DNA of 64,000 nucleotides from Roseibacillus sp. (GTDB taxonomy: Bacteria > Verrucomicrobiota > Verrucomicrobiia > Verrucomicrobiales > Akkermansiaceae), in contig JAPKFB010000017.1 of NCBI GenBank assembly GCA_028821775.1, positions 1-64,000 of the forward strand. Reading direction: 5' to 3'. Every line of letters begins with the position of its first letter. Position 1 is the stretch's first letter. The notes beneath the pieces were generated by a model, which ran no database searches, was not told the DNA's origin, and worked only from the letters and a program-made list of their open reading frames with translations. The translations under genes and the position numbers were made by a program. Positions 50,140 through 52,947 of this stretch are shown piece after piece.

Positions 50140-51060
50140 TTATTCGGACGCGTTCTCCGGATCCGGTTCGCTCTCTGAGTCGGAGTCAGGGGCTGATCCA
50201 GGTTCGATTCCGGATTCGTCTTTCGGGAGCTTGTGGCCCTCCAGAGGCACATCGCGTTCCTTGATCCGGACCACCACCGTGGCCTCCACCGGAAGGTCGT
50301 TGGAGGGCACGACCCAGTGAACCAGTTCGGAACGCTCGCGCACGCGGACGCGGAGCTCTCCGTAGTAGATCACCTCCTCCTTCACGATCCCGACTTTCTC
50401 GGCGAACCACATCGTGCGTTTCAAAGCGGAGGTGTCCTGCTCGCTGATAATCTGGATGCGAAAGGTATCGAAGGTTCCCGCCGGGACGGTGACCTGGCAC
50501 CGCTCGATCACGCGGAAGAGAAAAGATCGACCAGGCTCGCGACCCACGCTTTCCCAAGTTTGGCCCGGTCGCATGTTGGGAGTGGCAAGCGCGACGCCGG
50601 GGGTCAAGAGCTTCGCTTCGCTCGCGGGAGTGCCTGCCGGAATCCATCCGCGACTGATCACGCCCTCCCCTCCAAGGCCGTAGAGCTCTTCGCCTCGAAG
50701 CTCTCCGTTCTCGGAGATTTGCATTGTGGTGAGCATCTTTTCCGCCTGCAGGATGTGCTTCCGTCCCGTGCAGGTTCGCACCCGCTCGAAGGTGATGAGG
50801 TGTCCAGACTCGGTGCGTTCAGGAGGGGGGTCGGCGTCGTCATCTGAGAGCTGAAGCTCGATGGGAATCTCCTTCTGAACTTTGTATTTCCAGACCTCCC
50901 CCTTGCGCGGCGAAAAGAAGACTCTCCCGTTTTCCTCCGACACAGCAGGGTCTTCGACGCTCAGCGCATTCTCACCCGGTTCCCCTCCGCATCCCGACAG
51001 GAGGGCACAGACCCAAGCGAGACCCAGAGCCGACCCCCTGACTTTGCGCGAAATACTCAT
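50140..51060 (-). CDS. Predicted lipoprotein, last gene of the TPM operon
   Basis: The start at 51060 gives a lipoprotein signal: MSISRKVRGSALGLAWVCAL then LSGCGG, with the lipobox Cys near residue 26. The body (306 residues in all) is beta-rich with RVFFSPRKGEVWKYKVQKEI, RPGQTWESVGREPGRSFLFR and VTVPAGTFDTFRI, a pattern seen in periplasmic proteins with a DUF3108-like look. It ends in an acidic tail (DSDSESEPDPENASE). Its ATG overlaps the stop of the preceding TPM gene as ATGA. Function unknown. Confidence 0.75.
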   Translation of the reverse strand: MSISRKVRGSALGLAWVCALLSGCGGEPGENALSVEDPAVSEENGRVFFSPRKGEVWKYKVQKEIPIELQLSDDDADPPPERTESGHLITFERVRTCTGRKHILQAEKMLTTMQISENGELRGEELYGLGGEGVISRGWIPAGTPASEAKLLTPGVALATPNMRPGQTWESVGREPGRSFLFRVIERCQVTVPAGTFDTFRIQIISEQDTSALKRTMWFAEKVGIVKEEVIYYGELRVRVRERSELVHWVVPSNDLPVEATVVVRIKERDVPLEGHKLPKDESGIEPGSAPDSDSESEPDPENASE

Positions 51061-51806
51061 GAGATCTTGGGAGGGAGAGCGACTACGAATTGGCCTCCGC
51101 CGCTCCACTTGCCACCAAGGCGGCGACGCCAGCGGGTTTCGGGGAATTGCAGATCGGAGGGCCGTCTTCTGCGGAGGTAGAGCAGCGCTACCACGCCCAC
51201 GGCAACGAGGGCGAGCAAGGTGGCGATCACGGCGCGGAAGATCATGGATTGATGCCGGCCTTCTGGGCCTTGCAACTGCTGCTGCTGGTGGGCGAGGTGC
51301 TCCTTGTGTTCAAACTCCCTCCGATTCTTGAGGAAGACAAATTCTTCACCGGCTTCGAGTCCGAGAGCCTCCACTTGAGCGCGCGTGGTGCGCTCCTTCA
51401 TCCCGCGCAAGACCGCGCTGTGGAGGGCCACGGCGGGAACCTCCTCCTGGAATTTCTTGGTGTCGCTCCCGCCGTAAACGGCGGTGGGGCGGTGCAGGGA
51501 ATCGGGAATGTGGAGGATGACCACCCAGAGGGGTTCCCGCGCCCAGGTTTCCCCAACACGTTCGGCCAGCTCCTCAAGGCTGGTTTCGGGGGGAAGTCCG
51601 CGCTCCCACACCACGACCATGACGTCGATCTGGTAGCTCTTGCGATAGCGCCCCAACGCGCCCTCGAGACGAGAGCGGCGCTCGTCCCCCAACCACGATC
51701 CTGCATCGAGAACCTGGCCTGTAGGAGGATAGGGAAACTCTATGGCCTGCCCCACTGCCAAGGTATGAGCAAGCAGACTGAGCATAAGGAGAAGGCGCAT
51801 CATCAT
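51057..51806 (-). CDS. TPM-domain protein with signal peptide and C-terminal membrane helix
   Basis: 249 residues from the ATG at 51806 (MMMRLLLMLSLLAHTLAVGQ signal). The extracytoplasmic domain (about 30-150: PTGQVLDAGSWLGDERRSRL, QIDVMVVVWERGLPPE, PLWVVILHIPD) resembles TPM domains (Psb32/YgcG type). A Gln-rich linker (HLAHQQQQLQGPEG) and one helix (FRAVIATLLALVAVGVVALL) with an RRRR stop-transfer signal follow. Start and stop overlap neighbours as ATGA on both sides, so three genes are translationally coupled. Function unknown. Confidence 0.7.
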   Translation of the reverse strand: MMMRLLLMLSLLAHTLAVGQAIEFPYPPTGQVLDAGSWLGDERRSRLEGALGRYRKSYQIDVMVVVWERGLPPETSLEELAERVGETWAREPLWVVILHIPDSLHRPTAVYGGSDTKKFQEEVPAVALHSAVLRGMKERTTRAQVEALGLEAGEEFVFLKNRREFEHKEHLAHQQQQLQGPEGRHQSMIFRAVIATLLALVAVGVVALLYLRRRRPSDLQFPETRWRRRLGGKWSGGGQFVVALPPKIS

Positions 51807-52504
51807 GACGAAGTGGCGGACTCCCGTTGTGTCCGTCCGCGATCCTTGCTCACGGGGTCTTCCTCGTCCGTGGGTTCGGGTGACTCCTTCTCTGCGCTCT
51901 CCTGGGCCTTGTCCCCGTTCTTGGGTTGATCGCTGGAAGGGATGGGCGCCTCGCGACGGCGATGGTTTTTCTGACGGCGCCATTCGGCCGTCTGCCAGGC
52001 GTCCGTGAGGAGGACGCGCACGTCGACGAGGAATCCGTTGAGACCTTCCTTCCATTGGTCATCGGCGATGCAGGCCGCCAGTTCCTGGAGGGCGGCTTCC
52101 CAGGTTTCGGGTTTGATGAAGGGCTCGAGGGCGTAGCCCGTGGTGAGCGTGAGGCGTCCGGAGGTCAGGTCGCCCACCACGAGGAGATGCCAGGCTCGAG
52201 CTTTGTCGGCACCCGGCGCCGTGTTGTGGAGCCAGAAGGCGAACTCCTCGATGGAGACGCCAGCCTGCAAGCAGACAAAGCAGAAGGAGAGTTCCACCTG
52301 CCGGGCGCGTTTGCGGACCTTCTGATAGGTTTGGCGAATCTCCTTTTCGATTCCCTCGGGAAGAAGCTGGGCGGGATCGATGATCAAGGCAAGGGGAGGC
52401 GCTACAAACGGAAAGGCCTTCGTGCATTGGGAGAGATCGAAGTCGCAATGCCCGCAGGTGTCCTCCGGCTGCTCGAGCTTGGACTGGCAATGGGGGCAGA
52501 CCAT
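51803..52504 (-). CDS. Zinc-ribbon plus TPM-like domain protein
   Basis: I start at ATG 52504 (MVCPHCQSKLEQPEDTCGHC), which puts the two CxxC pairs of a zinc ribbon at the N-terminus; a GTG at 52573 would add 23 residues. A TPM-like domain follows (PPLALIIDPAQLLPEGIEKE, QVELSFCFVCLQAGVSIEEF, HLLVVGDLTSGRLTLTTGYA, LEPFIKPETW). The tail is highly charged. No membrane helix, so cytoplasmic. First gene of the coupled operon; its stop overlaps the next start as ATGA. Confidence 0.7.
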   Translation of the reverse strand: MVCPHCQSKLEQPEDTCGHCDFDLSQCTKAFPFVAPPLALIIDPAQLLPEGIEKEIRQTYQKVRKRARQVELSFCFVCLQAGVSIEEFAFWLHNTAPGADKARAWHLLVVGDLTSGRLTLTTGYALEPFIKPETWEAALQELAACIADDQWKEGLNGFLVDVRVLLTDAWQTAEWRRQKNHRRREAPIPSSDQPKNGDKAQESAEKESPEPTDEEDPVSKDRGRTQRESATSS

Positions 52505-52696
52505 TGGCGCACGGGTAAAGGCCCGGGCCGAATACTTGCGCGGGCTCGATTTCGTGTTCGTGGCGTCAGACACCGTTTGGATCAGGAACTTCTCCTAGTG
52601 AAGCTTGATACTCCGTAAAGGTAAAGAATCTACTTTGAGGCAGAATCCCTTGCAGAGGGGAGATCTTGAGGAAGCTTCGCCAAGATTTTAGACAGG

Positions 52697-52947
52697 GTGC
52701 AAGCGGTCGTGGTGGATCTCCTGGTGGGAGTTCAAATGGGGCTCTGCCTGCTGCCAATGTTGGTGGTGAAGCTCCAACGACCCAGGAATGAGGGGCTTGG
52801 CACATTGAGTGGGGGGACCTTCGAAGCAGTGGTAGGGGCTAATGCCGCGGGGGGGTGTTGCAGAGTGCTCTGGGATCGCGGGGGTGGATGCCTTGCGTCA
52901 TTCTCTCCTTCTTGCCGTCCTTATATGATTGGCAGTCAATACGTTAG
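52697..52947 (+). pseudogene. Decayed secG copy
   Basis: From GTG 52697 the frame reads VVVDLLVGVQMGLCLLPMLV, VKLQRPRNEGLGTLSGGTFE and AVVGANAAG, parallel to the intact SecG (LMQRPKQEGLGAAFGAG...MFGAQTTNVLQ). At the seven-G run (52849-52855) the sense moves to another frame, GVLQSALGSRGWMPCVILSF then LPSLYDWQSIR, ending at 52945. One more G would join them. A tandem, diverged copy of the secG that starts 58 bases later. Confidence 0.65.

Follow-up and report, generated by a model that had tools for sequence, protein, structure and literature searches.

Three open reading frames lie back to back on the minus strand of the window (the whole stretch of 64,000 nucleotides of Roseibacillus sp. DNA that was analysed), and both junctions between them have the form ATGA, a common operon junction. 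The first-pass annotation had described three genes joined in this way, and this layout was borne out, except that the start of gene 1 probably lies further upstream.

51803..52573, minus strand: gene 1 (P0001), cytoplasmic zinc-ribbon and TPM protein, 256 aa from GTG 52573 or 233 aa from ATG 52504
51803..51806, minus strand: ATGA overlap of the gene 1 stop and the gene 2 start (junction 1)
51057..51806, minus strand: gene 2 (P0002), exported membrane-anchored TPM protein, 249 aa
51057..51060, minus strand: ATGA overlap of the gene 2 stop and the gene 3 start (junction 2)
50140..51060, minus strand: gene 3 (P0003), lipoprotein, 306 aa, with a DUF3108_like / LolB-YmcC-like beta fold

Across the genus a GTG codon is kept approximately 66-69 nt ahead of ATG 52504, and several congeners lack an ATG at the matching position, so translation of gene 1 probably begins at GTG 52573. 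The triplet is flanked by a divergent secG (named from its sequence, not by a family search) and a convergent panD, and because of this arrangement it appears to form its own transcription unit. Scans for promoters and terminators around the triplet gave results at chance level. On the plus strand, a degenerate SecG-like stretch at 52697-52880 (LLPMLVVKLQRPRNEGLGTLSGG) was observed upstream of the intact secG-like gene within the same long ORF; it may be the remnant of a duplication or else extend the gene upstream.

Gene 1 encodes a protein in which a zinc ribbon precedes a TPM domain.

52445..52498, minus strand: zinc ribbon CPxC-x10-CxxC (Cys 3, 6, 17 and 20 of P0001)
52028..52384, minus strand: gene 1 TPM domain (residues 41-159), which retains the G-Y-x-x-E motif

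The match to the Pfam TPM family (PF04536) scored 23.7 bits, above the cut-off of 22.1, and the family profile of gene 1 matched the TPM structures 2kw7 (7e-4) and BA41 (5e-3). All four cysteines of the ribbon, arranged as two CxxC knuckles, are invariant among 35 homologues; the Pfam DZR profile alone stayed under its cut-off on gene 1. A transmembrane segment was sought in gene 1 and none was found, in agreement with the earlier description of the product as a cytoplasmic zinc-ribbon TPM protein. Residues D43, D112 and E127 are retained together with the G-Y pair, and catalysis by gene 1 could on these grounds be envisaged.

The product of gene 2 is built of a signal peptide, a TPM-like domain, one transmembrane helix near the C terminus and a short cytosolic tail, as expected of the exported, membrane-tethered TPM protein proposed initially.

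51402..51719, minus strand: gene 2 TPM-like periplasmic domain (approximately residues 30-135), AlphaFold pLDDT >90 over most of its length
51174..51230, minus strand: gene 2 single C-terminal transmembrane helix (residues 193-211), hydropathy 2.79, found in all relatives scanned
51060..51167, minus strand: gene 2 cytosolic C-terminal tail (residues 214-249), conserved as FPExxWRRRLGAxWSGG

Gene 2 itself scored 16.8 bits against PF04536, under the cut-off of 22.1, and one relative (L084) reached 22.5 bits. Single-sequence searches of the PDB with genes 1 and 2 returned nothing useful, alignments being needed, and no family name was obtained from NCBIfam. With the family profile of gene 2, TPM structures were matched at E = 5e-10 to 5e-5, among them 7tbr (5e-10), BA41 (1e-9), the cyanobacterial Psb32 Tll0404 (2e-8) and 2kw7 (1e-7), and the TPM families of genes 1 and 2 align mutually over 160 columns. 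The AlphaFold model of gene 2 (mean pLDDT 84.9) was matched by Foldseek to AtTLP18.3, Psb32, BA41, BA42, 7tbr and chains of mycobacterial supercomplexes (8hcr_J, 8ovc, 6adq); the 16 best matches are all TPM proteins or TPM-like supercomplex chains, with the possible exception of 9h70 (LMTP1), and TPM proteins make up nearly all of the high-probability matches. By its predicted model, then, gene 2 has the TPM fold. The G-Y-x-x-E motif has been lost from this domain and a single acidic residue, D34, is widely conserved, which makes a structural role more likely than a catalytic one, as far as residue conservation can tell. The most conserved region of the protein is the tail, with 2.26 bits per column in comparison to 2.01 in the TPM domain, and R229 within it is invariant.

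Gene 3 was confirmed as a lipoprotein gene by an invariant lipobox cysteine and a match to the Pfam family DUF3108_like (PF21347) at 31.3 bits, above the cut-off of 27.

50989..51000, minus strand: gene 3 lipobox LSGC (Cys24, with Gly as the +2 residue), Cys24 invariant in the family

In E. coli, a glycine at position +2 directs a lipoprotein to the outer membrane, a rule that may not hold in this host. A beta fold was confidently predicted for gene 3, resembling YmcC-like lipoproteins and, weakly, LolB. Foldseek gave a probability of 1.00 to 4fvs, 3fzx and 9tpm, and the best structural matches are Bacteroidales lipoproteins with a YmcC-like fold and LolB of P. gingivalis. For LolB the E-value was 7.6e-4 with a probability of 1.00, but the TM-scores were low (0.28/0.34). 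Gene 3 shares a lipobox and a large beta fold with the DUF3108_like, YmcC (GfcB) and LolB-type lipoproteins, and differs from them in low TM-scores and in sharing an operon with TPM genes.

The three genes were found in order in 13 of the 15 genomes of the genus, in one of them (G012) split over two contigs. This exceeds what chance would give, and the triplet is present in the cultured Roseibacillus persicicus KCTC 12988 (L156). The two remaining congeners, G001 and G008, have no triplet, and the triplet must therefore be regarded as dispensable; G001 retains an older TPM pair, described below, and in G008 (88% complete) no relative of gene 1 was found. In every one of the 41 genomes that carry triplet-type genes, gene 1 lies immediately upstream of gene 2, and gene 3 follows directly downstream in 30 of them; it was not found in nine genomes with enough downstream sequence, and two could not be judged. 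The three genes have the species tree in common, which would leave a high mirror-tree correlation between them uninformative. Neither of the contrary outcomes named beforehand was encountered: the genes are not mostly independent of each other in the relatives, and the TPM fold is predicted. The upstream neighbour of the triplet varies, being secG in the genus and hisD elsewhere; genes 1 and 2 are therefore not kept together just because they belong to some larger conserved block, and it is these two TPM genes that form the real unit. The genes panD, hisD and that of an aldo/keto reductase were considered as functional clues and rejected, since they change from one genus to the next or else accompany the paralogous pair. 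No lemA or pspA stands beside the triplet (the genome's own lemA and pspA are on other contigs) or was recognised in the neighbourhoods examined, and neither a consistently adjacent respiratory gene nor a nearby ABC transporter was seen at the triplet.

The idea that the three products are made in step was upheld in part. Junction 2 is a 4-base overlap in all 13 genus genomes and in 19 of the 30 triplets. Junction 1 has this overlap in 24 of the 41 loci and otherwise mostly a spacing of +1 to +10; within the genus the values run between -4 and +10, and an ATGA at this junction is therefore not a conserved feature of the genus.

The same genome carries a second, older pair of this kind at L091:8942-10677 (contig C138), in which the stop of a zinc-ribbon TPM gene and the start of an exported TPM-like gene (361 aa) again overlap as ATGA. 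It is flanked by an aldo/keto reductase gene and, on the other side, by a methyltransferase-like gene and then two trypsin-like PDZ (HtrA-type) protease genes; the proximity to two such protease genes recurs in several relatives. The older pair type extends to further families of the order and, beyond the order, into the class, its adjacency kept and usually with the 4-base overlap. In a tree of gene 1 domains the older-pair type was split from the triplet type, the tree being arbitrarily rooted and holding only three triplet-type rows. In nine species of a sister genus (L193-L201) the older pair is a single ORF, cut in one case by the contig end. These species form one clade with a support of 0.95, and in their sister species two overlapping ORFs are present. 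The fused ORFs measure 604-677 aa where this could be cleanly determined, and most of them have a hydrophobic stretch at the site expected for the gene 2 signal peptide and a second transmembrane segment before the tail. Their sequences fit a layout of cytosolic TPM domain, hydrophobic segment, TPM domain, transmembrane helix and tail.

Two further observations concern TPM loci. At L202:3892-4701 and L204:4115-4924 of the sister genus, the TPM pair directly follows the gene of an Hsp33-like (HslO) chaperone. In the genome studied, a broken TPM-like gene follows immediately after an lspA-like gene at approximately 2150-2610 of L213 (contig C82), with half of the domain in one frame and a transmembrane segment with the conserved tail (RLGAPFCGG) in another.

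Given that the paralogous pair has been fused and that genes 1 and 2 are adjacent without exception, it is very likely that they form a functional pair, and the two TPM proteins very probably act together as a single unit across the inner membrane. The earlier suggestion of one envelope-spanning complex is strengthened by the fusion of the homologous pair and at the same time narrowed, as its core would be the TPM pair, the lipoprotein being missing in several genera. Gene 3 is an addition to the pair and would serve as a lineage-specific periplasmic accessory. That the three proteins act independently in the envelope and merely share a transcript could account for a lipoprotein that comes and goes among genera, but is very improbable in view of the adjacency kept across many genera despite changing surroundings, the duplicated pair and the gene fusion.

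As to the function, which the first-pass annotation had left as of unknown kind, known TPM proteins involved in photosystem II assembly and repair, in cbb3 oxidase and in PspA operons suggest a role that can be tested. TLP18.3/Psb32, the top Foldseek matches of gene 2, likewise have an exported TPM domain and act with Psb27 on photosystem II, with rubredoxin, a CxxC-type metal protein, on the opposite membrane face (PMC13089150). The present unit differs in that there is no photosystem here and that gene 1 joins its zinc ribbon to a TPM domain of its own. Psb27 is a helical bundle, whereas gene 3 is a beta protein. CcoZ (Cj1484), on which full cbb3 oxidase activity depends, has the TPM fold and resembles MSMEG_4692 of the cytochrome oxidase-bc supercomplexes (PMC8267372), chains of which match the gene 2 model; it is, however, a single TPM protein beside oxidase genes, for which neither a zinc-ribbon TPM partner nor a lipoprotein has been described. 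In the ydjFGHL PspA operon of B. subtilis a TPM protein (YdjH) and zinc ribbons (YdjG) are brought together in one membrane-stress operon (PMC11237479), but on separate proteins, and its PspA and band-7 genes were not found beside the triplet. A survey of PSP systems, in which PspA operons were seen to hold both TPM proteins and zinc-ribbon proteins, also proposed an assembly-chaperone role for the former (PMC11237479).

The reading we favour, still tentatively and at somewhat less than even confidence, is that the locus encodes a two-sided TPM module at the inner membrane, which has the lipoprotein as an accessory and acts as an adaptor in the assembly or repair of a complex. The gene 2 product would be anchored by its single C-terminal helix, with the TPM domain in the periplasm and a cytoplasmic tail of 36 residues. 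The soluble gene 1 product would dock on this tail or on the membrane region of gene 2, a contact that we infer; the tail is the obvious docking place because no other region of gene 2 is as well conserved. As a result, one TPM domain would be positioned at each face of the inner membrane, and gene 3, where present, would act with the periplasmic one. The TPM domains would probably hold a multi-subunit inner-membrane complex, perhaps a respiratory one, during assembly or repair, as Psb32/TLP18.3 do on photosystem II. Such a role is favoured because large membrane complexes are where TPM proteins of known function are located; the siting of the older pair near two HtrA-type protease genes and the single conserved acid of the gene 2 domain also count in its favour. 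Against it stand the lack of a consistently adjacent respiratory gene, the occurrence of the fusion in the paralogous pair and not in the triplet, the dispensability of the triplet in the genus, the absence of the lipoprotein from several genera and the acidic residues kept in gene 1. A bolder version, which we consider rather unlikely, would have genes 1 and 2 grip an inner-membrane complex from both faces as a clamp, helped by the LolB-like lipoprotein, and form in the Akkermansiaceae and their relatives a non-photosynthetic counterpart of the Psb32-Psb27-rubredoxin set.

The retained D43, D112, G-Y and E127 of gene 1 would also suit a TPM hydrolase system, with gene 1 as a cytoplasmic metal-dependent phosphatase or ATPase tethered by gene 2 as a catalytically dead periplasmic sensor. 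Some TPM domains reportedly have phosphatase or ATPase/ADPase activity, going by the titles of Wu 2011 and Cerutti 2017. The phosphatase role was deemed unlikely in recent analyses (PMC11237479), a view repeated in a later paper (PMC12419801), and with the motif and all but one conserved acid gone from the gene 2 domain a hydrolase system appears improbable.

It is likewise doubtful, and to a similar degree, that the locus encodes a module for handling lipids or lipoproteins, with gene 3 as a LolB/YmcC-like carrier and the TPM pair as its inner-membrane partner. The structural matches of gene 3 and the decayed exported-TPM copy adjoining an lspA-like gene point in this direction, but LolB is matched with low TM-scores, several genera keep the TPM pair although gene 3 is missing, and no ABC transporter is nearby.

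Each of the domains is already known, as are operons linking TPM proteins with zinc ribbons. In the open-access literature we found no published description of the triplet and no account of a ribbon-TPM fusion with an exported TPM partner, of the tail, of the fused homologues or of the added lipoprotein. For TPM domains in most bacteria, phosphatase and assembly chaperone are competing proposals. The unit described here, with a TPM domain predicted on either face of the same membrane, a conserved tail that could join the two, a paralogous pair already fused in nature and a carrier available in culture, allows a direct test between them.
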